From Stigmatella erecta (GTDB taxonomy: Bacteria > Myxococcota > Myxococcia > Myxococcales > Myxococcaceae): a stretch of 64,000 nucleotides of DNA. The position numbers and the translations under genes were made by a program. Position 1 is the first letter of the stretch. Each line of letters begins with the position of its first letter. Positions 2,990-35,485 of this stretch are shown here, one piece after another. The DNA lies in contig NZ_FOIJ01000003.1 in NCBI RefSeq assembly GCF_900111745.1, forward strand, positions 248,001 to 312,000, written 5' to 3'. The notes below the pieces were generated by a model. The model was not told the DNA's origin. It searched no databases and saw only the letters and a list, made by a program, of their open reading frames with translations.

Positions 2990-4930
2990 TCACGCCGAGC
3001 CAGCTGGCGACCCTCCCTGTGAGGATTTTTCGCCTATTGCCGCGTCCGCATCGGCCAGCGAGGCCTCCCGCACCGGGTCCGCCGCATCTTCTTCCTCGTG
3101 GCCGTGAAGCCCCGCGTGGACGCGCTCGGCCAGCGACGGGCCCACCACTTCGGCGAGCTCCTCGATGCTGGCGTCGCTCACGCGCTTGAGCGAGCCAAAA
3201 TGACGCAGCAGCAACTTGCGCCGCCCCTCCCCCACCCCCGGAATGTCCTCCAGGGCCGAGTGGATGCGGCTCTTGCGCAGATCCTTGCGCTGGAAGGTGA
3301 TGGCGAACCGGTGCGCTTCGTCCCTCATGCGCGTGAGCATGAAGATTTCCGCTGAGTTCTGCGGCAACACGATGGGGTCCTTGCGACCCAGCACGAAGAT
3401 GCGCTCGGGGCTGCGGGCGCTCTCCGCATCGCGATCAAACACCTCTTGATCCCGGCTCTTGGCGAGGCCCACCACGTCCACGCCCTCCACGCCCAGGTCC
3501 TTCAGGGCCGCGTGGGCGCTGGCGAGCTGGCCCTTGCCGCCGTCGATGACCAGCAAATCCGGCAAGTCCTTCTCTTCCTGGCCCCGCTTGAGGCGGCGGG
3601 AGATGACTTCGTACATGCTGGCGAAGTCGTCCTGCTTCTCCAGGGTTTTGATCTTGTAGCGGCGGTAGCGGGACTTGTCGGTCTCCCCATCGGTGACGGC
3701 CACCTGGGAGGCGACGATGCTGGAGCCCTGGAAGTGCGAGATGTCGAAGCACTCCATGCGGCGCGGGTAATTGCGCAGGCCCAGCTTCTGCTGGAGCCGG
3801 CCGAGCACCGCATCCGTCTCGTCCTTGGTGCGCTTGCGCTCCACGAAGGACTGCTCGGCGTTCTTGTGCGCCATGAGCACCAGCTCGTGCTTCTCGCCGC
3901 GCTTGGGCACCAGCACGCGCACCTTCTGGCCCTTGCGCTCGGACAGGAGCGCCTCCAGCCCCTCCAACGACTCCGGCTCCAGCGGCAGCAGGACTTCCTC
4001 GGGCACGAAGCTGCCCTGGTCGTAATAGAGGTTCACGAAGGAGGCGAGCAGCTCCTCGTCGGGGAACTCCTGGCTGCCGAAGGGGAACGCCTGGCCCCCG
4101 TTGAGCCGGCCCTGCCGCACCCAGAGGACGTAGAAGAGGATGCGGTCGCCTTCCCGGAAGAAGGAGAAGACGTCCTGGTCCTTGAAGTCGGTGGTGGCCA
4201 CCTTCTGGCGCTCCAGGCTGCGCTCGATGGCCTGGAGCTGGTCGCGCAGGCGCGCGGCCTCCTCGAACTTCAGCTCGGAGGCGGCGCTGCGCATGCGCCC
4301 CCGGAGCCCATCCACCAGCTCGCCCGCCTTGCCCTCCAGGAACATCCCCACCTCGTCCACGCTGCGGCGGTAGTCCTCGGTCGGGACCGGGTAGACGCAC
4401 GGGGCCGGGCAGCGGCCGATCTGGTGCAGCAGACAGGGCCGCTTGCGGTTGGCCAGCACGTGGTCCGTGCAGGTGCGCAGGTGGAAGTAGCGGTTGATGA
4501 TGCGCAGCGTCTCGCGGATGGCGCCCGCGCTGGAGTACGGCCCGAAGTAGCGCGCCCCATCCCGCTCATACTTGCGCACCACCTCCAGCCGGGGGTACGG
4601 CTGGCTGCGGTCGAGCCGCAGGGAGATGAACTGCTTGTCGTCCTTGAGCAGGACGTTGAAGCGCGGCTTGTGCTTCTTGATGAGCTCGTTCTCGAGAAGC
4701 AGCGCTTCCTTCTCGTTGTGAACGAGCACCGTCTCGATGTCGCCCAGCATCGTGTCGAGCAGGGCGATGAAGGCGCGCGTGTCCCCGGTGCGGGTGAAGT
4801 ACGAGCGCACCCGGTTGCGCAGGTTCACCGCCTTGCCCACGTAGATGACGAGGCCCCGGCGGTCCTTCATCAGGTACACGCCGGGTTCGGTGGGCAACGA
4901 GTCCAGCTTTTCCTGGAGCCGGGCGTCCAT
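2990..4930 (-). CDS. uvrC: UvrABC excinuclease subunit C
   Basis: A 646-residue UvrC of normal length. It makes both incisions flanking a lesion once UvrB is loaded on DNA. Visible in order: the GIY-YIG nuclease (P-G-V-Y-L-M and I-Y-V-G-K-A, residues 15-35) for 3' incision; the UVR motif that binds UvrB (residues 205-240); the RNase H-like domain for 5' incision, starting at C-F-D-I-S-H near 392; and a C-terminal helix-hairpin-helix pair (D-I-P-G-V-G-E, near 562). The four-cysteine cluster with [13 protein letters not shown] near 165-180 is also present. It starts 9 bases after the uvrB stop, so the two are translated from one message. A terminator follows at 2926-2953. The last 40 residues are acidic and Ala-rich and are probably disordered. 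Confidence 0.97.
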
Positions 4931-22884: not shown

Positions 22885-25800
22885 TTAGCACGCACGGGGG
22901 GAGGGGTGACAGTGTTCCGCGAAGCCACAATGTAGCGCCCGACACGCCGGGGCTTCCCGGCTGGACCATTCATCTTGCATGCCGGAGCGGACCAGGGCCC
23001 GCACCGCCTGCTCCAGCGGCTCGGCGGCCTCCGTCAGCCCCCCTGGCAGGGTGAGGAACTCCGGCTCCGGCGAGGGCTCCCCGAGGAAGGCCACCCCGGC
23101 CCGGACCGTCACCCCGTCCTGGACCAGGCGCCTCGCGGCCAACCCCTGCACCACCAGCTCGTGCGCGAACGCCACGGGACCCAGGGGGTGCCGTTTGCCC
23201 CGCCGGTAGGCCACCACCCGCGCCTCCCCCTCGGGCGTTTCCCAGAGCAGGTCCAGCTCGCCCTCCACGGCCACCGGACCCGGGGCGTCCGGGGCGGACA
23301 GCGTCAGCGAGAAGGCCAGCCCCCGGTGCAGGCGCGACGGGGGGCTTGCGGCCAGGAGCCGGGCAAAGGGGGTGTCCAGGAAGCGCTCGGTCATCGCCAG
23401 CACCGCCTCCATCCCCTCCCCGTCCGGCAGGTGGCCCCACGCCTGAAGGAGGGCTTCCAGGTGCGCCCGGCGCTCCGGCGCGGGCGCGATGGCCCAGCGA
23501 AAATCCAGCTCCCGGAGCAGCACGGCCCCCATCTGGGAGGCGTCCGGGACTTGCCCCCAGGCATCGGCCTCCACCCAGAGGGGGCGGCGCTTCGCCGGAA
23601 GTTCCCACGGGCGATGGCCGCTCAAGCCCAGCTGGTGGATGTAGCGGTAGCGCCTCGGGCAGACCATGAAGTCCTGGAGCGCCTCGGCCGAGGCCACGGC
23701 GGACACCGGCTCCAGGGCGGCCCCGCCCCGCACCCGCTGGACGGCCGCCTCCACCCGCACTTCGGCTTCCGCGAGCTCATCCGCGCTGGGGGGCAGCGGA
23801 TCCGCGGGGGGTGGCAGGGCCGCCACCTCGATGTCCCGCACCCGGGCCCGCAGCGCCGCGTCCGAGCCCAGGCGCCCATCGAGCATCGTCCACCAGGACA
23901 AGGGCACGCGCTTCTCCGCCGTGCCCGAGAGCAGCAGCAGGTCCCGCGCACGCGTGAGCGCCACGTAGAGCAGGCGCCGGTACTCGGCGAGCCCCCGCGC
24001 ATCCAGCTCGTCCTTCACCGCCTCGAAGCGGGTGGAGCTGAAGCCCTCCAGGGAGTCCGGCAGCCACGGCCTCAAGACCAGGCCGTGCGTCCGCTCGAAG
24101 TGGATCCGGCCGCTCTCGGCGCGCCGCTTGCCGCCCAGCCCCGGCACCACGACGATGGGCCACTCCAGGCCCTTGGCCCGGTGGATGGTGAGCAGTTGCA
24201 CCGCGCGCGGATCTCCCGCGTCCAGCAGGTCCGCTTGCGCCTCGGCCGGATCCGACTCGACGAGCATGCGCAGCTCCCGGGCGAAGGCCACGCACCCGCC
24301 CGTGCCGCGCTCGTCGCGCCGGCCCGCGAGCGCCAGCAGCTTGTCGATGTTGGCGCTGGCCTGCTCCGCGTACGGGGTGCCCGCCATGGCCTCGCGGTAG
24401 CCCGTGACGTCCATGGCCACCTGAAGCAACGCCTTCACGCCGAGCCGGTCCCGCTCCCGCCGCAGCGAGGGAAGCGCCGTCAGGAAGCGCTCCAGCCGCA
24501 GCCGCTCGCTGGGCTCCAGCCCGCACGTGGCGAGGTCCTTCTCCTCCACGCCGGCCAGCGTCAGGCCCTTCTCCCCCGACAGCCGGAAGAGCGCGGCATC
24601 CGACAGCCCCACCAGGGGCGAGCGCAGGACCGCCGCCAGCGCGAGCGAATCCTCCGGATCCGCCAGCAGCGCCAGCAGGGAGGCCAAGTCCAGCACCTCC
24701 TGGGCCCCATAGAAGCCGCGTCCCCGCAGCACCCGGTGCGGCACGCCCTGGCGGATGAGCGCCTGGCGGTACACCTCCAGGTGGGTGAAGGTTCGCAGGA
24801 GGATGGCCACGTCTCCACCGCGCGCGGGGCGCAGGCGCTGGCCATCCTCGTGGGCCACGCACGGGGGCGCGCCTGGCGCCAGCATCAGGCGCAGCCGCCG
24901 GGCCACCGCGTCGGCGTCCAGCTCTCGCGCCTCCGCCGCGGTCTCCGCCTCGCCGATGAGCAGCCGCTCCACCGCGGGCTCCGGGGAGAGCTCCGGACGC
25001 ACCGGCGACAGGTCGTCCTCCTCGGAGACGTACGCCACCTCGTACGGGCGCGGGGGCTGCCCCGCCACCAGCACCCCCGCGAAGGCCCGGTTGAAGAAGT
25101 CCAGCAGCGCCGGCACCGAGCGGCGGTTGTGCTGGAGAAAGCCCTTCTGGCCTCCCTCGGCGACAATCTGCTCCGCCAGCGCCGCGAAGACGGAGACGTC
25201 CGCGCCCCGGAACTCGTAGATGGACTGCTTGCGGTCGCCCACCGCGCACAGGAACGCGGGCTCCAGCGGAAGCGCGGCGCGCAGGTCCTCGTCCGGGTGC
25301 ACCGTCCGGGGGCCTCCGTCCCGCTGCTCGGACAGCAGCAGCACCAGCTCGAGCTGAAGCCGGTTGGTGTCCTGGAACTCGTCCACCAGCAGCGCCCCCA
25401 GCCGCTCCTGCACCTGGCGGCGGAAGGGAGGATGGTCCCTCAACAGGTCCCTGGCCTTCACCAGCAGGGCGGTGAAGTCGAAGACGTTGCGGCGGGTGAA
25501 CTCGGTCTCGTGGCGCACCTCGACCTGGCCGAGCAGCGCGCGGAAGGTGCTCTCGAACGGCACCGTGCGCCAGGCCGCGAACGCGTCCTCCAACCGCAGC
25601 ACCGAGCCATCGCTCTTGCCGAACACGAGCCAGTACAGCGCCCGGATGGGGCTCGCCGCGCCCTTGCTCAGCCGCGCGAAGTTGCGGCCATCCGCCAGGA
25701 ACGCGGCCTTGAGCGCGGGCAGCCGGTCCGCGAGGAAGAGGTTCTCCGGCGTCATGCCCTCCAGCGCGCGCTCACAGGCCTCGCGCAGCAGGCGCCACTC

Positions 25801-26520
25801 GCCCTTCGCGTCCAGCTCCTTCGCCGAGGCACAGTGCTTCCAGCCCTCGCCGATGAGCGCCTCCAGCACGGCACGGGCTTCCTCGAGGCGTGAGATGGGC
25901 GCGGTCTCGGCCCGGAGCCCCTCCTCGCGCAGCTTCGCGTAGACCTGCCGCAGCGAGCTCACGAGGCCATCGGAGAACCCGGAGCCGGAGAAGGTCAGCT
26001 CCTGGCACAGCTCGCTCACCTCCAGGCTGCCCTTCTCCAGGGCATCCAGCACCACGCGCTCGCACACGTCCTGCACGAGGCTGCTGGCCTCCAGCTCGTC
26101 GAGCACCTCGAAGGCGGGATCAATCCCCAGGCCCGCGGGCGCGCGGCGCAACAGCTGGCCACAGAGCGAGTGGAAGGTGCCCACCGTGGCCGCGCCCAGC
26201 TCCTCGCGCAGGGCGCGCCAGGTGTCCTGGGTGGGAAAGGGGCGGCTCAGCCGCTCCAGCGAGGCGCGCAGCTCCGGCTCCTTCGCCTCCGCCTGGGCCA
26301 GCGCGTCCAGGCGCGCGCGGGTGCGCGAGCGCATCTCCGCCGCCGCCTTGTCGGTGAAGGTCAACATGCACAGCTTCGCGGGCCGCAGCGCCGGGCCCGC
26401 CTCCCGCGCCCCCGCCAGCAGGTGCAGCACCATCGTCACCAGGCTGTACGTCTTGCCCGCGCCCGCGCCCGCCATCAGCGCGAGGTTCTGCTCCAGGGCC
26501 AGGGGAGACGCGGTGCTCAA
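22885..26520 (-). CDS. addA: AddA/RecB-type UvrD-family helicase-nuclease subunit
   Basis: A 1211-residue superfamily 1A helicase that with AddB processes double-strand ends for recombination. Motif I is G-A-G-A-G-K-T near residues 17-23; L-L-V-D-E-F-Q-D-T is motif II near 378, V-G-D-R-K-Q-S-I-Y motif III, and T-I-H-R-A-K-G-L-E-W and Y-V-A-L-T-R-A-R-D motifs V and VI. The C-terminal nuclease-like domain keeps G-E-L-D-L-L but shows V-A-Y-R-R-G where an active family member has D-Y-K-T/S-G, so this nuclease is probably dead. The start is taken as TTG 26520, whose last two bases are the first two of the addB TGA stop; GGAGG precedes it. No other start lies before the P-loop. Confidence 0.9.
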   Translation of the reverse strand: MSTASPLALEQNLALMAGAGAGKTYSLVTMVLHLLAGAREAGPALRPAKLCMLTFTDKAAAEMRSRTRARLDALAQAEAKEPELRASLERLSRPFPTQDTWRALREELGAATVGTFHSLCGQLLRRAPAGLGIDPAFEVLDELEASSLVQDVCERVVLDALEKGSLEVSELCQELTFSGSGFSDGLVSSLRQVYAKLREEGLRAETAPISRLEEARAVLEALIGEGWKHCASAKELDAKGEWRLLREACERALEGMTPENLFLADRLPALKAAFLADGRNFARLSKGAASPIRALYWLVFGKSDGSVLRLEDAFAAWRTVPFESTFRALLGQVEVRHETEFTRRNVFDFTALLVKARDLLRDHPPFRRQVQERLGALLVDEFQDTNRLQLELVLLLSEQRDGGPRTVHPDEDLRAALPLEPAFLCAVGDRKQSIYEFRGADVSVFAALAEQIVAEGGQKGFLQHNRRSVPALLDFFNRAFAGVLVAGQPPRPYEVAYVSEEDDLSPVRPELSPEPAVERLLIGEAETAAEARELDADAVARRLRLMLAPGAPPCVAHEDGQRLRPARGGDVAILLRTFTHLEVYRQALIRQGVPHRVLRGRGFYGAQEVLDLASLLALLADPEDSLALAAVLRSPLVGLSDAALFRLSGEKGLTLAGVEEKDLATCGLEPSERLRLERFLTALPSLRRERDRLGVKALLQVAMDVTGYREAMAGTPYAEQASANIDKLLALAGRRDERGTGGCVAFARELRMLVESDPAEAQADLLDAGDPRAVQLLTIHRAKGLEWPIVVVPGLGGKRRAESGRIHFERTHGLVLRPWLPDSLEGFSSTRFEAVKDELDARGLAEYRRLLYVALTRARDLLLLSGTAEKRVPLSWWTMLDGRLGSDAALRARVRDIEVAALPPPADPLPPSADELAEAEVRVEAAVQRVRGGAALEPVSAVASAEALQDFMVCPRRYRYIHQLGLSGHRPWELPAKRRPLWVEADAWGQVPDASQMGAVLLRELDFRWAIAPAPERRAHLEALLQAWGHLPDGEGMEAVLAMTERFLDTPFARLLAASPPSRLHRGLAFSLTLSAPDAPGPVAVEGELDLLWETPEGEARVVAYRRGKRHPLGPVAFAHELVVQGLAARRLVQDGVTVRAGVAFLGEPSPEPEFLTLPGGLTEAAEPLEQAVRALVRSGMQDEWSSREAPACRALHCGFAEHCHPSPRAC

Positions 26521-29500
26521 ACGCCCTCCTCCACCACCCGCCGCTCGGTGATGCGGCACACCGGCCGGTAGCCGCAGCTGCCGCAATCCTTCGGGCGCAT
26601 GCCGAACTGGCCCTGCCGGGCCGTGGCCACCAGCTGCTCCACCGCGTTCGCCAGGTTGGGCTTCTCCTCCTCGGCCAGCCGGGCGCGGATGGCCGGATCC
26701 GTGGCCAGCATGTCCTCCAGCTCCTCGGCGGAGACCACCTCGGACAGGTGCACCGTCGTCCCCGTGCGGAGCGAGAACCAGGCCGCGTTGCGTGCCTCCC
26801 GGTGGCCGCTGGCCCGCGCCGCGTAGAGGTACAGCGGGAGCTGGAAGTCCGAGGACAGGAGCTTCTGCTTCAGCTCCCGCTTGTCCAGGCGCCCCGACTT
26901 GTAGTCGATGACGCCCACGTCGCCCGCGCTCTGATCCAGCCGGTCGATCTTCCCCTCGAAGTGAATGGCCTCCTCGCCCGCCAGGAGCGACACCTGGCCC
27001 CACTTGTCACCGGCTTTCGGGCCGAACTTCAGCTCGAAGGCCTCGGGCATGTAGCGCTCGAAAGGCATCCCCCGGCGCTCGTCCGCGAGGATGCGCCGCG
27101 CCATGGCCCGGGCCCGCTCCTTGGCGAGCTTCCACAGCTCCGGATGCCCCACGTGGTGGCGCTGCTCGAAGTAGCGCACCGCCTCGGTGAGCGATTCATC
27201 CAGCACCTCGTCCGGAAGCGCCTCCAGACCCTTGCCGAGCAGCCCCTTCGCCCGAAGCCGCCGGAACACTTCCTCCAGCACCCGGTGCCAGAAGGTTCCC
27301 CGGCCGCGCGCATCGAACTCCTCGCCCGGCTGCTCCGGCTCGGTCACCTTCAACCCGTACGTGAGGAAGCCCTGGAAGCCACAGTTTCCAAACCGGGCCA
27401 GCGCCGAGGCCGACAGGGGCCGGTTCTCATCGAAGCGGAACGTCTCCCGCAGCGCCGTGTCCAGCCCCGGGCCCGCGATGTGTCCCGTGTAGGGCCCCAC
27501 CCGGTTGGCCGGGTTGCTGAAGAAGTGCAGGCGCTCGACTTCCACGTGCGCCAGCTCCTTTGCGCTGGCGAACCACGCCTCGACCGCGAAGCGCCGGCGC
27601 AGCAAGGGCCCCGCCACATCCGGCTCGGTCACGCGCAGCCGGGCGGACGCCAGCGTCTCCAGGGCCACGCGCTGGCGCAGCTCGGACTCCGTCAGCACGT
27701 CATCCAGCGGCGGCACGGCCATCAACGCCCGCGCCTCCCAACCCTTGCCCGTGAGCCGGCGGAGCTCCTCCAGGAACGCGGAGGGCACCTGCTCCTGCCC
27801 GCCCACGCCCGTTGCCGGGAAGGACAGGCTCACCTGCTCCTCCGCCGCCACCAGCGCGCTGGCGAAGAGCAGCCGGTCCTCGGCGAGGCGCCACGGCGCC
27901 CGGTCCTCGAACTCGCCCCCGGTGAGCCGGAAGACGTCCCGCCCCAGGTGCTTGTTCAGCTCCACCCGGTCGGCGTCTCCCAGCAAGGGATTGGGCGCCT
28001 CGTGCCCCGGGAAGCGGCCCTCGGTCATCCCCGCCAGGAAGAGGTGGCCGAACGTGCGCCCCGCCAGCTCGCGGATGTCCAGCACCTCCACCGCGCCGGC
28101 CGCGGGCCCCCGGGGCGGCAGGTACACGTCCCGCATCGCGTCCAGGAGCCACCGGCCGAAGGTGCGCCGGGACAACCTCGGGCCGCCGTCCACCGTCCGC
28201 AGCGTGCGCTCCAGCTCCCCCACCCGGAGGCTCAGCGCCTGGCGCGCGGCATCGTCCCGGGACCGGGCCTCCAGCCCGTGCAGCCCCAGGGCGCCGTCCC
28301 GCAGGGGCTCCAGCTCCCCTTCCGAGTCCGTGAGCCCCAGCTGCCGCACGGCCTGCCACCACGCCCCGAGCAGCTCCAGCGCGCTGCCCGACTCGGGGAT
28401 GCGGCGGCACTCCTCCATCAGCCGCAGGCAGCGCTCCCGGAGCAGCCGCACCGCATGGGCCCGCGCGTGCGCCCGCTCGTCGTGGGCAGCCAACAGCCGG
28501 CGCGCCAGCCCCTCCAGCCGCACGTCATACGCGCCGCGTCCCCGCGAGGCCCCCAGCCGGTCATCCCGCACCGCCGCCTCGGTGAGGAGCGTCGCCGGGG
28601 CCGCGGGCGCGCCGCGCGAGAGGATGGGCGCGTACCGGCTCGCCACCAGCTCCGCCACGCGCTCGGCCGGAAACCCATCCTCGGCCAGCAGGGGCAGCTC
28701 CAACGCCAGCCGCACCGGGCCCGCCAGCGCGAGCGGCTCGCCAAACGGCAGCCGCACCGGCACGCCCAGCGCGCCCAGCGCCTCGGCCAGCCACCGCGCC
28801 TCCGGCCCCGGCTCCCGCCAGGCCACGGCGATCCGGCCCGGCTCGACGCCCTCGGCCACCAGCCGGCGCACGTCCCGGGCGATCTGCCGGGCCTCGTCCT
28901 GGGCCGAGCCCACGCTCCACATCCGCAACGGGCCCGCCGCGGCCTCCAGCGCCCCGCGCGCCACGCCCGCCGAGAAGAGGTGGCGTCCCAGCTCCGCCAG
29001 GGGACGGTCCTCGAAGGTCAGGTCCGCCTTGAAGAGGTCCACATGGCCCAGCGCCTCCCCCTGGTTCTCGAAGGCCCGGAACAGGCCCGCCAGCGCCGCG
29101 TCCGCCACGGGCGAGCCGCCCACGGGCGTCTCCACCCGCAGGGCCACCCGGCGCTGCTCGCACACCGCCGCCAGCGCCAGGAGCAGCGCCAGCCCCGAGG
29201 GCCGCACGTCGTACAGGCCGTGCAGCACGAGCGTGTCCACGTCCTCCCAGGCCGCGGGCCACGCGCCCGCCTGGAGCGCCTGGAGCGCCTGGAGCGAGCC
29301 GCGCAGCACGTCCTCCCGGTCCGCCAGCCCCAGGGCCTCCATGCGCCGGACATAGGCGTCATACAGCCGGGCGAGCACCCGGAGCCGGGGGCGGCGCTCT
29401 TGCGGAAGCAGCTCCGCGGCGTCCTGGAGCTCCCGGGGCGTCAGCCGGCCCGCCTTCATGTCGAGCACGAGTTCCAGCGCGGCGCGGGCGAAGGCAGGCT

Positions 29501-29750
29501 CCTGGACGAAGGCGCCAAAGGGCGTCTCGCCCAGTCCCTGGGCCAGCGAGCCCATCACCACGCGCGCCGCCGAGGCCGCGCAGGGCCTGCGCTTCAGCCC
29601 CCGGGCCCCCCCCAGCGCGTTGACGAATTCGTCCCAGGTGAGACAACCCGCCGCCCGCACGAAGCCGTGGCTTTCGCGTGTCGCGCGCAGCACTTGCTGG
29701 CGCCGGTTCGCGTCGGGGAAGACCTGGAGGGTGCGGCCGGGACGGGGCAT
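26517..29750 (-). CDS. addB: AddB-type PD-(D/E)XK nuclease/helicase-like subunit
   Basis: A 1077-residue partner of AddA. The N-terminal half is an inactivated helicase-like fold with no Walker A motif, and the C-terminal domain is an intact RecB-family nuclease: E-G-K-I-D-R-L-D, V-I-D-Y-K-S-G near 945 and Q-L-P-L-Y. One Cys (F-G-N-C-G-F, near 786) and three near the C-terminus (C-G-S-C-G-Y-R-P-V-C, about 1055) match the 4Fe-4S cluster that pins the AddB nuclease domain. It thus carries the working nuclease of the pair. A -10-like TAGAAT lies 9 bases before the ATG and no Shine-Dalgarno is present, suggesting a near-leaderless transcript. It overlaps addA by four bases and is divergent from the PAP2 gene. 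Confidence 0.9.
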   Translation of the reverse strand: MPRPGRTLQVFPDANRRQQVLRATRESHGFVRAAGCLTWDEFVNALGGARGLKRRPCAASAARVVMGSLAQGLGETPFGAFVQEPAFARAALELVLDMKAGRLTPRELQDAAELLPQERRPRLRVLARLYDAYVRRMEALGLADREDVLRGSLQALQALQAGAWPAAWEDVDTLVLHGLYDVRPSGLALLLALAAVCEQRRVALRVETPVGGSPVADAALAGLFRAFENQGEALGHVDLFKADLTFEDRPLAELGRHLFSAGVARGALEAAAGPLRMWSVGSAQDEARQIARDVRRLVAEGVEPGRIAVAWREPGPEARWLAEALGALGVPVRLPFGEPLALAGPVRLALELPLLAEDGFPAERVAELVASRYAPILSRGAPAAPATLLTEAAVRDDRLGASRGRGAYDVRLEGLARRLLAAHDERAHARAHAVRLLRERCLRLMEECRRIPESGSALELLGAWWQAVRQLGLTDSEGELEPLRDGALGLHGLEARSRDDAARQALSLRVGELERTLRTVDGGPRLSRRTFGRWLLDAMRDVYLPPRGPAAGAVEVLDIRELAGRTFGHLFLAGMTEGRFPGHEAPNPLLGDADRVELNKHLGRDVFRLTGGEFEDRAPWRLAEDRLLFASALVAAEEQVSLSFPATGVGGQEQVPSAFLEELRRLTGKGWEARALMAVPPLDDVLTESELRQRVALETLASARLRVTEPDVAGPLLRRRFAVEAWFASAKELAHVEVERLHFFSNPANRVGPYTGHIAGPGLDTALRETFRFDENRPLSASALARFGNCGFQGFLTYGLKVTEPEQPGEEFDARGRGTFWHRVLEEVFRRLRAKGLLGKGLEALPDEVLDESLTEAVRYFEQRHHVGHPELWKLAKERARAMARRILADERRGMPFERYMPEAFELKFGPKAGDKWGQVSLLAGEEAIHFEGKIDRLDQSAGDVGVIDYKSGRLDKRELKQKLLSSDFQLPLYLYAARASGHREARNAAWFSLRTGTTVHLSEVVSAEELEDMLATDPAIRARLAEEEKPNLANAVEQLVATARQGQFGMRPKDCGSCGYRPVCRITERRVVEEGV

Positions 29751-31295: not shown

Positions 31296-32213
31296 TCACC
31301 CCAGCTCCAGTTCCTCTTCCGCGGAGGCGGCGGGGGGGCCCACCGAGGGCAGCGATTGGAGGTTCCACGGCGCCCCGGCCTGCCAGGCCACCGCGCCGGA
31401 GAGGCCCCAGCCGCCGCGCACGGGCTCGCGGTTCTCGAACTCCAGCCAGAACACCGCCTCCTCCGGCCGGGCCGCCTGATCCAGACAGGCCACGCGCGTC
31501 ACCGGCCGTCCACTCTCTCCGCCCAGGGACACCGCGAAGCCCTTGTGGGAGTGCCCGCAGAACATCCACTTGGGCCGCAGCGTGTCCGCCAACCGGCGCG
31601 TGATGGGATTGCCAATCCAATACGACGGCAGGGGCCGGACCGAGGAGGCGTTCTCGTCCCGCGCCCGCTGCACGATGCCCCGCGGCCACTCGTGCACCAG
31701 CAGCAGGTCCACGTCCCGCGCGTGCATCACGCGCTCGACTTCGGGCGCGCGGAAGTAGCCGGCCTGCTTCGCCGTATCGAGCGCCCGGGGCCGCTTGAGC
31801 GGCTGATCAAAGAAGCGCGGGGCGTGGATGCCCGAGAGGTACGCCACGCGCAGCCCCCGCAGCGTCTGGAGCCCCGCCCGCCCGAGGTAATACACCTGGG
31901 GGGCCAGCTCCATGCCCTCCGGCGCGTCGTGGAGCGCCTCGAAGTCCTCGTTGTTCCCACCGATGAAGTACAGGGGCCGCTTCATCTGCCGCTGCCCGTC
32001 CGCGTACTCGGCGAACTCGGCGGGCATGAGGCGCTTGGTCATCTTGCGGCGCTGATCATCCGCGCGCCGGAAGGCCTCCACATCCCCCACCGCCAGCACC
32101 AGGTCCACCGGCCGGCCCCGCGCCGTCTCCAAGGCCTCCATCCACGCCTCCACCCGGTGGAAGCGGCCATGGATGTCTCCCACACCCGCGATGAGGAGAG
32201 ATTGTGTGGACAT
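31296..32213 (-). CDS. Calcineurin-like metallophosphoesterase resembling Dbr1 N-terminal domain
   Basis: A 305-residue metallophosphoesterase. The metal-binding residues are clear: D-I-H-G (D13, H15), G-D-V-E-A-F (D44), G-G-N-N-E-D (N87), V-H-E-W-P-R-G (H164) and G-H-S-H-K (H201, H203). The order and spacing, V-Y-Y-L-G-R-A-G near 97-104 and Y-L-S-G-I near 115-119 look more like the N-terminal domain of eukaryotic RNA lariat debranching enzyme Dbr1 and CWF19-like proteins than like ordinary bacterial phosphodiesterases. The usual catalytic His of G-N-H-E is Asn here. The start ATG 32213 is preceded by AAGG about 7 bases upstream. The substrate is unknown. It lies downstream of the VWA lipoprotein but beyond its terminator, so it is probably separate. 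Confidence 0.8.
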   Translation of the reverse strand: MSTQSLLIAGVGDIHGRFHRVEAWMEALETARGRPVDLVLAVGDVEAFRRADDQRRKMTKRLMPAEFAEYADGQRQMKRPLYFIGGNNEDFEALHDAPEGMELAPQVYYLGRAGLQTLRGLRVAYLSGIHAPRFFDQPLKRPRALDTAKQAGYFRAPEVERVMHARDVDLLLVHEWPRGIVQRARDENASSVRPLPSYWIGNPITRRLADTLRPKWMFCGHSHKGFAVSLGGESGRPVTRVACLDQAARPEEAVFWLEFENREPVRGGWGLSGAVAWQAGAPWNLQSLPSVGPPAASAEEELELG

Positions 32214-32305
32214 TGCAAGGCCTTCGGCGTGAGCCTTCAAAGTGCCGTGGCCCCCTCCCGCTGTCGAGAGGGATTTCCCCGCAGGCGTTGAAAACAGTGC
32301 TGAGA

Positions 32306-32369: not shown

Positions 32370-35333
32370 TCAACAACCCAGCGGGTACGTGACTTCCACG
32401 AGGGCGCCCGGCGGGGGGGCCGCCTGGGCCTCGAAGACAATGGCGCGGGTGTCTGGGTTGTAATTCCAACCGGACGTCACCGGCACCCCGTCCACCGTGA
32501 CGGAGATCTGCGAGGGATTCTCGGGCACCTCGGACAGCGGGAAGGAGCGGTTGGGCCCGAAGGTGTTGGACGAGAGCTTCTTCAGGGACTCGGCCCAGTT
32601 CGGCGTGCAGATGCTCTCCACGACGCCGCCGGTGGCCTCCGCGAGCTGGATGTAGCGCGAGCCCGAGCTGCTGGCCGTCACGCAGGTGGACAGGTTCGCG
32701 GGCCCCACGATGGCCGAGACGCTCAGCTTGGAGGCCTCGTTGTTCTTCAGCGCGCGGAAGTACGTCTCGTAGAAGGAGACCGGCTGGGTGGAGAAGTCCT
32801 CCTCGTCGGTGAGGAAGATGAGCGCCAGCCGCGCGTCCTCGCGCAGGAAGCCGCCGTTGCCGTCCGCGGCCTGAGCGGTGCGCGGATCATCCGTGTTGTG
32901 CAGCAGCGGCTGGGACAGGGCCCGGTAGGCGGCCTCCAGCCCCTGCTCGTTCCAGTGGCACACGCCCACCTGCGTGTTGTGGGCGAAGACGGACGAGGCG
33001 TTCGGCGTGGTGGGGGTAATGACGCGCGGCGAGGACCCATCCACCGGGAAGAGCCGGCCGTTCTCACCGCCCTCGGCGCCGCCCAGGCAGGCGGACCAGC
33101 CGCCCGGCGAGGCATCCAGGCCCGTGGTGGTGACCCCGATGTGGTAGTCCACGCCCGCGGCGTTGGCGGAGCTCAGGAAGGCGGCAAAGTTGCTGCCCAG
33201 GCTCTGCTGCTCCTCCATCATCGAGCCCGAGTTGTCCACGACGAAGAGCACGTCCACCTGGGCCTCGGACTCCTGGAGGAACGTGTCGGTCTGCTCGGCC
33301 TTGGACACGCCCTTGCCCAGCAGGCTCGCGGTGTAGACGGAGTCCGGCCCCAGCACGAAGCGCAGCGCCGCCGCGTCCACGCCCTCGTTCTCGGGCGCGT
33401 AGGTGGCGCGCATCCGGAACTGCTCCCCCGCCTGCAGCGTCACCGGGAAGGCGGGCACCTCCGAGAGCTGGAACTCCGCGCCGTCCTGCGCCACCTGCAG
33501 GCCCTGGACGGTGAGCGGGCCCGCGCAGCCGTTGTAGGCGATGAGATCCTGCGTGCGCGGCGCGCACGTGAGCTGGGAGATGCCGAACTCCAGGTGCGTG
33601 GGCTGAACGGCGAAGCAGCCCTTCACCCCTTCGCCCACCACGCTCACGGTGGGGTGCCCCGCGGACGGGTGGTTCACCCAGCCCTCCGCCAGGCCGCCAT
33701 AGGAGGCCTCCGCCTCGGGCTTGAACCGGACGAGGAGCTGCGCCTTCTGCCCGGGGGCCAGCAGGGAGCCCGTCACCGGCTGGGCGCTGAAGGCCCCATC
33801 CGAGCCCGAGGCAAGCTGCAGCCCCGCGAGGTAGCACTCCGTGGCGCCCGTGTTGCGCACGGAGGTGCCCAGCACCACCTCTGCGCCCACCGGCACCCGC
33901 CCGAAGTCGAGCGTGGCCGGGGTCACCGTGTACTGGCACGGCGGGAGCGCCTTGCCGTGCCCCTTGAGCGCCACCGCCTCGGTGGAGGTGGTGCCGCCGC
34001 TGCGCACGGACACGGACAGCTGGGCCTCGCCCTGCCCCGCGCCCGCCCGGGGCGTGAAGGTGATGCCCACGGCGGCCGTCTGGCCCGGGCCGATGGGGGT
34101 GCTCGCGGGCGCCTGGGCCAGCGTGAAGAAGCCGCCCTGCCGCGTGTCGATCTGCACGTCACTCACCAGCACCGGGACGCGGCAGCGGTTGATGACCTTC
34201 ACCTCGCGGGTGGCGGACATGCCCTCGGCCACGCCTCCCAGGTCCAGCGCGCGCGGCATCACCGTCACGCACGAGGAGCCGCCCTCCCCGCTCAGCGCCA
34301 CCTTGGGCGCGGGCGCGGCCGAGCCGGAGGCCTTCACGTCGATTTCCACCCGCGCCTCGGGAAGCGCGCCGAGCCGCGACGGCGCGAACGCCACGCGGAT
34401 CTCCGCGGCCTGCCCCGGATTGAGGACGCCGCCCGGGGGCACCACCGCGCTCAGCAGGCGGAACTCCCCGGCGCCCTCCAGGAGGCGCGCGCCCTGGTAG
34501 CTCATGGGCGTGGTGCCCAGGTTGCGCACCATGATGCGCTCCTCGGCCGTGGCCCCCAGCGCCACGTTGCCGAAGTCCACCCGCAGGGGCGAGATGTCCA
34601 GCTGCGAGGCGATGCCCATGCCCTTGAGCGGCACGGCCATGGGCGCGCAGCCCTCGCACACCTCCACGCTCACCTCGGCGGAGGCCACGCCCAGCCGGCG
34701 CGGCTTGAACGCGATGGGCAGGGCCTGCTCCTCGCCCGGCTGCAGCATCAGCTCCGGCCCGGCCGCGCTGGAGGAGAACTGATCCGCGTCCGCCCCGGCC
34801 ATCCGCAGCCGCAGCGGGCTCTCCACGCGGGAGGGGTTGCGCAGGCGCAGCGTGAGCACCTGCACGGTGTCCAGCGCCACGTTGCCGAAATCCAGCTCCT
34901 GGCTGCGCACCTCGACCCAGGCCTTGACGCCCTGGCCCGCGAAGTTCACCTGCGAGCCCGCGGCCCCGTCCGAGTCCGCGTCCGTGAGGATGTCCACCAC
35001 GCCCTGCACCGTGCCCTCCACGGCGGGCGAGAAGCGCACCTCCAGCTCGGCCTCGCCCCCCGCGCTCAGCGAGAAGGGCTCGAACGGGGCGATCTCCACG
35101 TGGGGGACGCTGGAGGAGGCACCCTCCACGCGCAGCGGCGCCCGGCCTTCGTTGGCCACCCGCAGCTTCACCGTCTTGGTGGAGCCGAGCGCCGCCGGGC
35201 CGAACTCCAGCACCTGCGGCCGGGTGGCGAAGCCCGTGCGTGCGCGGTTGCCGGAGCTCTGCCGGTCACACCCGCTCAGCCCTCCCGCCACACACGCCCA
35301 CGCCACCAGCCAAGCCCACCGACGTCCCCACAT
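32370..35333 (-). CDS. Large lipoprotein: choice-of-anchor D (ASPM/SPD-2/Hydin-like) repeats plus von Willebrand A-like domain
   Basis: A 987-residue lipoprotein. The start ATG 35333 sits behind GGGGAGG, and the lipobox L-S-G-C is at residues 19-22. Six immunoglobulin-like repeats of about 100 residues follow, each beginning with L-x-F-G-x-V/A and containing a N-x-G or R-N-L-G turn; these match choice-of-anchor D / ASH-type repeats. A von Willebrand A-like domain starts near 710 with the MIDAS motif F-V-V-D-N-S-G-S-M, followed later by F-L-T-D-E-E-D-F. The C-terminus is a β-rich domain ending in Cys. This is a surface- or periplasm-anchored binding or adhesive protein; the ligand is unknown. 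It is followed by a terminator at 32306-32339. Confidence 0.85.
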   Translation of the reverse strand: MWGRRWAWLVAWACVAGGLSGCDRQSSGNRARTGFATRPQVLEFGPAALGSTKTVKLRVANEGRAPLRVEGASSSVPHVEIAPFEPFSLSAGGEAELEVRFSPAVEGTVQGVVDILTDADSDGAAGSQVNFAGQGVKAWVEVRSQELDFGNVALDTVQVLTLRLRNPSRVESPLRLRMAGADADQFSSSAAGPELMLQPGEEQALPIAFKPRRLGVASAEVSVEVCEGCAPMAVPLKGMGIASQLDISPLRVDFGNVALGATAEERIMVRNLGTTPMSYQGARLLEGAGEFRLLSAVVPPGGVLNPGQAAEIRVAFAPSRLGALPEARVEIDVKASGSAAPAPKVALSGEGGSSCVTVMPRALDLGGVAEGMSATREVKVINRCRVPVLVSDVQIDTRQGGFFTLAQAPASTPIGPGQTAAVGITFTPRAGAGQGEAQLSVSVRSGGTTSTEAVALKGHGKALPPCQYTVTPATLDFGRVPVGAEVVLGTSVRNTGATECYLAGLQLASGSDGAFSAQPVTGSLLAPGQKAQLLVRFKPEAEASYGGLAEGWVNHPSAGHPTVSVVGEGVKGCFAVQPTHLEFGISQLTCAPRTQDLIAYNGCAGPLTVQGLQVAQDGAEFQLSEVPAFPVTLQAGEQFRMRATYAPENEGVDAAALRFVLGPDSVYTASLLGKGVSKAEQTDTFLQESEAQVDVLFVVDNSGSMMEEQQSLGSNFAAFLSSANAAGVDYHIGVTTTGLDASPGGWSACLGGAEGGENGRLFPVDGSSPRVITPTTPNASSVFAHNTQVGVCHWNEQGLEAAYRALSQPLLHNTDDPRTAQAADGNGGFLREDARLALIFLTDEEDFSTQPVSFYETYFRALKNNEASKLSVSAIVGPANLSTCVTASSSGSRYIQLAEATGGVVESICTPNWAESLKKLSSNTFGPNRSFPLSEVPENPSQISVTVDGVPVTSGWNYNPDTRAIVFEAQAAPPPGALVEVTYPLGC

Positions 35334-35485
35334 AAGCGCCGCCTCCCCAAACTCCGTCCAGGGGGGCCATTGCAACTGGAATGCCCAGACAGGGAAGCCG
35401 GGCGGTCAACAGAGCAAACGGCCCGGCGGACTGGGGAAAAAGGCGGGAATGCCCACGGAAGCAAAGTCTCCACCCCGGACCCATC

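Follow-up and report, generated by a model that had tools for sequence, protein, structure and literature searches.

A central role in eukaryotic RNA metabolism is attributed to Dbr1 (PMC4176325), which is described as the only enzyme known for the selective cleavage of lariat 2'-5' bonds (PMC10470207). In the enzyme of Entamoeba histolytica (EhDbr1), Tyr64 stacks the branchpoint base, His91 is placed for protonating the leaving 2'-O, and Cys14, the cysteine of the alpha pocket, is invariant in Dbr1; the variants C14A and C14S, like those without the C-terminal domain (CTD) or the lariat recognition loop (LRL), gave no lariat clearance in yeast (PMC4176325). Drn1/CWF19L1 is reported to be homologous to Dbr1, noncatalytic and able to bind it (PMC10470207, PMC4346921). 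No description of a bacterial Dbr1 was found in the literature searched, which covered few subscription journals or preprints; in their accessible parts, a DRT2 paper employs yeast Dbr1 as its reagent, and the only Dbr1 mentioned in two papers on group II introns is the eukaryotic one.

Here we describe a metallophosphoesterase gene of the Dbr1/Drn1 branch in Stigmatella erecta, found in a 64,000-nucleotide stretch of DNA that was analysed as a whole (the window). It lies at 31296..32213 on the minus strand, exactly where the first-pass annotation had placed it, and the open reading frame runs from an ATG at 32213 to a stop codon ending at 31296, encoding 305 amino acids. We assign the gene to a clade designated T1. 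A second clade of bacterial relatives, T2, is of the GNHE type and shares the same tree branch, with 28–41% identity to the window protein; its label is coined here, and no curated family name was found for it. Six copies of a third and more distant clade, T3, were read, and each has either GNHE or GNHD.

A longer open frame starts from a TTG at 32240 and overlaps a promoter-like element immediately upstream of the ATG, TCGACA-N17-CACTTT (32239..32267, minus strand), which is recognized by consensus likeness only. By inspection, TCGACA recurs in seven of ten upstream regions compared, the second element being variable, and the regions between uvrA and T1 contain a sigma70-like element. Pairwise dN/dS values amounted to 0.13–0.25 for T1 (nine pairs) and 0.15–0.32 for T2 (four pairs). 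In one single-contig genome (G145:C1:5535183-5536048) T1 is broken into two pieces close to model position 236, perhaps by a frameshift.

Kinship to Dbr1 and CWF19L1

When all PDB sequences were searched by phmmer with the window protein at E-values up to 10, seven distinct sequences matched: five Entamoeba Dbr1 (best 8e-21) and two CWF19L1 (1.1e-8 and 1.3e-6), with no other metallophosphoesterase among them. Up to the same E-value Pfam returned Metallophos (1.1e-12), a sub-threshold Metallophos_2 and nothing else, and NCBIfam gave no match. A profile built from 11 T1 proteins and run against the PDB found Dbr1 (8.8e-29), human CWF19L1 (2.3e-12) and worm CWF19L1 (4e-5) as the only significant matches, the sole other one being unrelated (E 0.44); E-values from a profile that included Dbr1 were left out of the evidence.

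The predicted fold points in the same direction. With an AlphaFold2 model of the T1 protein (pLDDT 83, pTM 0.86; 27-row alignment), Foldseek ranked Dbr1 first (E 2.8e-20), followed by CWF19L1 (2.2e-18 and 1.5e-13) and then LpxH (3e-7). VIA-align likewise placed the model nearest to Dbr1 (Z 28.9, rmsd 2.5 Å, 253 residues aligned), then CWF19L1 (Z 23.3 and 22.1) and then aq_1956 (19.2). With LpxH and other bacterial calcineurin-like enzymes the T1 protein has the superfamily fold in common, the Foldseek match being weak, and no LpxH was listed when the PDB was searched by sequence at E-values up to 10. The resemblance to Dbr1 and to the N-terminal domain of CWF19, which had been proposed from the letters alone, is far above chance in the PDB sequence search.

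A tree of 58 rows comprised T1, T2, EhDbr1, T3, two other relatives and three proteins from viral contigs, and was built without CWF19L1. T1 (100/100) and T3 (99/96) each formed a clade, and T1, T2 and EhDbr1 grouped together (97/89), apart from T3, the two other relatives and the viral-contig proteins. A position among ordinary phosphodiesterases would have spoken against the first-pass reading; in this tree the gene groups with T2 and Dbr1 and is separated from the other phosphoesterases included. Within this group EhDbr1, whose branch is very long, fell inside T2 (88/97), in an analysis whose bootstrap had not settled. We did not adopt a nested origin of Dbr1 in T2, because approximately unbiased (AU) tests failed to reject Dbr1 with T1 (p 0.34), T2 alone (0.28) or T1 plus T2 without Dbr1 (0.36), and EhDbr1, with its long branch, is the sole Dbr1 in the tree. 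Together, sequence, predicted fold and tree support the kinship of T1 to Dbr1 and CWF19L1.

T2 is closer to Dbr1 than T1 is, both as a single protein (1.5e-31) and as a profile (2e-51), and its model reached Z 31.3. Towards CWF19L1, the single T2 protein run against the PDB listed no human CWF19L1 and the worm protein at 0.38, and the T2 profile found the human protein at 1.9e-10 and the worm one at 7e-8.

In IMG/VR, the joint T1 and T2 alignment found four relatives, none of them T1, and the Dbr1 segment gave no match. A contig from this viral collection (UViG_3300001567_000262; L093, 133 kb) encodes at about 3998-4774 a GNHE relative with GDFQAVRDERDL, which is placed in the tree just outside T1, T2 and Dbr1 and has a Gln at the position of EhDbr1 Gln47. 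A mobile origin was considered and rejected, as there were no phage matches and four weak haloarchaeal plasmid matches for both queries.

Active-site residues and the recognition loop

Residue counts were taken from an alignment of 36 distinct T1 genes and 42 T2 rows, the latter with at least one duplicate (L046 and L037 come from one and the same contig). L046, BNCN01000008.1, is titled Comamonas sp. KCTC 72670; it matches a contig from the window's own family, and the organism name looks wrong. All seven metal positions of T1 are occupied by standard ligands in 36 of 36 genes: D13 and H15 in the motif D13-I14-H15 (32169..32177), the bridging ligand D44 (32082..32084), N87 in the GGNNE motif of residues 85–89 (31947..31961), H174 (31692..31694), and H221 and H223 in GHSH (31545..31553), all on the minus strand. 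The first-pass annotation had read D13/H15, D44, N87 and the segments VYYLGRAG and YLSGI correctly; its H164 and H201/H203 have to be replaced by H174, H221 and H223. It had also noted an Asn in place of the catalytic His of GNHE, and this residue, N88, is present in 36 of 36 distinct T1 genes and thus no sequencing accident, whereas the same position is His in 42/42 T2 rows.

T1 is bacterial and shares with Dbr1 (E. histolytica, PDB 5k71/4pef) the metallophosphoesterase domain at 22–25% identity, as well as the motif H-[DE]-W-P-x-G. Six of the seven metal-site residues are identical (H16, D45, N90, H180, H230 and H232 of EhDbr1; 36/36 T1 genes). However, Cys14 of EhDbr1 corresponds to D13, the acid His91 to N88 and the stacking Tyr64 to R61 (32031..32033, minus strand), each in 36/36 T1 genes. 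T2 has the equivalent of Tyr64 in 39/42 rows and Asp at the Cys14 position in 42/42. The lariat recognition loop of EhDbr1 (130–158) has 29 residues, and the loop at its position in T1, which starts at S127 and ends near G152 or R155 (31749..31835, minus strand), has 26 or 29 depending on the alignment, which is ambiguous inside the loop; accordingly, the invariant R158 of EhDbr1 falls on either G152 or R155. In the 36-gene alignment that gives a 26-residue loop, the EhDbr1 loop contacts K134, F136, F155 and H156 are not conserved in T1. T3 (L042 and L088-L092, from other Myxococcota) has a shorter loop of 22 residues, mostly ending in HYTRDEI or similar. The C-terminal domain of Dbr1 (EhDbr1 262–354) is absent from T1: the model aligns to Dbr1 over residues 3–263, and of the approximately 40 residues that remain the last 21 are modelled at pLDDT under 50. 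With Cys14, the acid His and the stacking Tyr replaced and the C-terminal domain absent, the window protein is not Dbr1 itself.

The N-terminal domain of CWF19L1/Drn1 (PDB 8ro2, 8ro1) is the second-best match of T1 by sequence (1.1e-8) and by fold (Z 23.3). The two have the stretch YLGR-G...YLSG in common, and the acid His is replaced in both, the human protein reading GANNQE where T1 reads GGNNED; worm CWF19L1 has GPANPR. T1 possesses all metal ligands and no Pfam domain beyond Metallophos and Metallophos_2 at E-values up to 10. CwfJ C-terminal domains are a feature of CWF19L1/Drn1, and none was found in the T1 protein in this Pfam search.

Distribution, neighbourhood and retrons

Among 195 Myxococcota genomes, in which T1, T2 and T3 were separated by score and tallied by hand, 76 had a match; five of these contain T3 only, leaving 71 with T1. 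T2 is present in 30 of the 195, all of which also encode T1, and 41 of the 71 T1 genomes, the window genome among them, have no T2 match. In a set of 98 genomes of relatives, 35 of the 58 members of the window's own family have T1, as does a single genome from a neighbouring family. Within the window's family it was found in 35/35 genomes of 13 genera and in 0/23 of the other 13, and is therefore inherited within genera and not universal in the family. T1 is a vertically inherited, single-copy gene that roughly half of the genera sampled in the family carry.

Outside the Myxococcota, T1 was searched for in genome samples of Acidobacteriota and Pseudomonadota; a scan of a contig database used T2 patterns, and the Cyanobacteriota were searched with a T2 profile. 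Seven of 199 Acidobacteriota and one of 299 Pseudomonadota genomes matched (the centre genome counted in each), all being T2 by motif, and T2 is rare in Cyanobacteriota (2/244 genomes, the centre genome again counted). The contig scan found 33 loci, two of which are only distant relatives, in Myxococcaceae, Archangiaceae, other Myxococcota, Cyanobacteriota, Acidobacteriota, Planctomycetota and one gammaproteobacterial MAG. The distribution of T2 is scattered across several phyla.

The flanks of 17 T1 loci (5–6 kb) contain uvrA, identified by inspection, in 13 cases (adjoining and divergent in five), a gene with HYDIN/ASH repeats in ten, PAP2 in seven, EamA in six and an AddB-like gene in six; none of these neighbours is present at a distant T1 locus (L036). 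The neighbourhood looks like stable chromosome order and not like an operon, and the neighbours at the 17 loci gave no hint of a substrate. In the window, the minus strand encodes at 32370-35375 a protein of 1001 amino acids with HYDIN/ASH Ig-like repeats and, by eye, a VWA-like DNSGSMM stretch, and at 22885-29750 an AddAB-like pair in which one PDDEXK protein is a UvrD helicase and the other a further PDDEXK protein. As to a role in defence, PADLOC offered a weak match to a single candidate model, PDC-S10, with 6e-7 for a T2 (L043:5001-5834) and 0.0022 for the window gene (31299-32213).

Processing of branched nucleic acids such as retron msDNA had been suggested as a possible function. According to a review, msDNA was made by 27 of 28 myxobacterial strains tested, and mature Mx162 msDNA consists of a 71-nt RNA and a 162-nt DNA whose 2'-5' msr-msd joint is still branched (PMC6868368). 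A debranching enzyme produced constitutively in these cells would hardly leave that branch intact. The window genome has one RVT_1 match, an ORF of 475 amino acids (L076:1276-2700) with RT_XIII, a retron type, as its best PADLOC fit (1.6e-154). Upstream of this reverse transcriptase (RT), at about L076:2816-2927, Rfam gave no match to msr; weak, sub-threshold matches to hairpin models of miRNA families were seen there. Using the RT of the window genome as query (E up to 1e-10), 62 of the 195 Myxococcota genomes had both T1 and RT, nine T1 only, 20 RT only and 104 neither. This association is strong (Fisher p 3e-23, kinship ignored), but T1 and the RT both cluster in one family and exceptions occur both ways; one of the T1-only genomes (G034) consists of a single contig with a stated completeness of 100%. 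Moreover, no retron-type RT was detected near T1, T2 or other relatives in 65 loci with flanks of at most about 6 kb on each side (tblastn, one retron RT query, E up to 1e-3; loci L001-L030 left out), a scan that divergent group II RTs could escape. A coupling of T1 to retrons is thus not supported: T1 has no strict dependence on them, and the nine T1 genomes without RT, the scanned loci without RT and the branched state of mature Mx162 msDNA argue against msDNA processing by T1. As for T2, 17 of 18 T2 genomes outside the Myxococcaceae have an RVT_1 match, including 8/8 cyanobacterial ones, against a base rate of 132/244 sampled cyanobacteria with genomes of all sizes pooled. This co-occurrence is only suggestive; a connection with retrons or introns suits the T2 paralogue more than T1, and for T2, too, it is no more than suggestive.

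Proposed function and the eukaryotic pair

With His91, Cys14 and the C-terminal domain gone and the two-metal site complete, we favour a His-independent, metal-driven hydrolase and propose, with evenly balanced confidence, that T1 is a two-metal enzyme of the Dbr1/Drn1 branch that acts on a phosphoester of a nucleic acid or nucleotide; both the catalysis and the class of substrate are what we infer. Two metals would be held by D13, H15, D44, N87, H174, H221 and H223 and would activate a hydroxide for attack on the phosphorus. When the acid His of the GNHE motif is lost, activity usually falls. Because an Asn replaces this proton-donating residue, it is probable either that the leaving group of the substrate is good or 2'-linked or that the enzyme turns over slowly. 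The earlier caution that the substitution could shift the enzyme to another phosphodiester is reasonable. Kept metal ligands are, however, no proof of catalysis, and the analogy with CWF19L1/Drn1, which is called noncatalytic (PMC10470207) and has the same Asn in its human form, would speak against it.

The loss of the His would also suit a phosphoanhydride with a good leaving group, and T1 might thus combine the Dbr1 fold with a nucleotide substrate and function as a small-molecule phosphodiesterase or pyrophosphatase, comparable to LpxH acting on a UDP-lipid. LpxH (GNRD) and YfcE (GNCD) likewise lack the acid His, LpxH is the first Foldseek family below Dbr1 and CWF19L1 (E 3e-7), and R61 together with a conserved KQAGYFR stretch could bind phosphate. 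Nevertheless, we regard such an activity as unlikely: neither the protein nor the T1 profile matched any chain of the LpxH or YfcE type up to E 10, and beyond Dbr1 (Z 28.9) and CWF19L1 no Z exceeds 19.2. Rather improbable, too, is that T1 resembles Drn1/CWF19L1 in binding without cutting, its ligand being either a partner enzyme or a nucleic acid with branches or 2' links. In human CWF19L1 the motif contains the identical Asn, and the human protein outscores Dbr1 over a 56-residue stretch around it (1.2e-4 vs 6.6e-3), the single-protein match to CWF19L1 is nearer for T1 than for T2 (1.1e-8, against no human match and 0.38 for worm), Drn1 is described as noncatalytic and Dbr1-binding (PMC10470207, PMC4346921), and all 30 T2 genomes of the 195, as split by score, also encode T1. 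Yet the seven metal ligands are kept in 36/36 T1 genes, Pfam finds only Metallophos-type domains, 41 of the 71 T1 genomes, including the window genome, have no T2 match, profile scores for CWF19L1 fail to separate the clades (human 2.3e-12 for T1 vs 1.9e-10 for T2, worm 4e-5 vs 7e-8), and one study reports that human Dbr1 activity was not raised by Drn1 (PMC10470207).

That T1 genuinely debranches retron msDNA or further 2'-5' linked substrates we consider improbable, even though Dbr1 is its nearest relative by sequence and fold, its loop approximates the lariat recognition loop in length and the window genome encodes an RT of the RT_XIII type. T1 lacks Tyr64 as well as Cys14, His91 and the C-terminal domain, and EhDbr1 without Cys14 or CTD failed in yeast (PMC4176325). 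Nine of 71 T1 genomes have no retron-type RT, 20 RT genomes have no T1, no retron RT was detected in the loci scanned, and mature Mx162 msDNA is branched (PMC6868368).

T2 and T1 recall the eukaryotic pair of an active Dbr1 and a noncatalytic Drn1/CWF19L1 (PMC10470207, PMC4346921). As a long shot, T2 proteins could be debranching enzymes that act on the lariats of group II introns, on retron DNA or on further RT products, and T1 a Drn1-like partner or branch reader, forming a two-part kit. If this were true, eukaryotic Dbr1 and Drn1 would go back to the bacterial T2 and T1 clades or to an ancestor common to both pairs. The T2 clade holds most of the Dbr1 active-site residues except Cys14, and T1 is an uncharacterised gene kept by many myxobacteria. 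These bacterial relatives of Dbr1 make the debranching of intron lariats or msDNA in bacteria, as well as the origin of Dbr1 and Drn1, accessible to testing.
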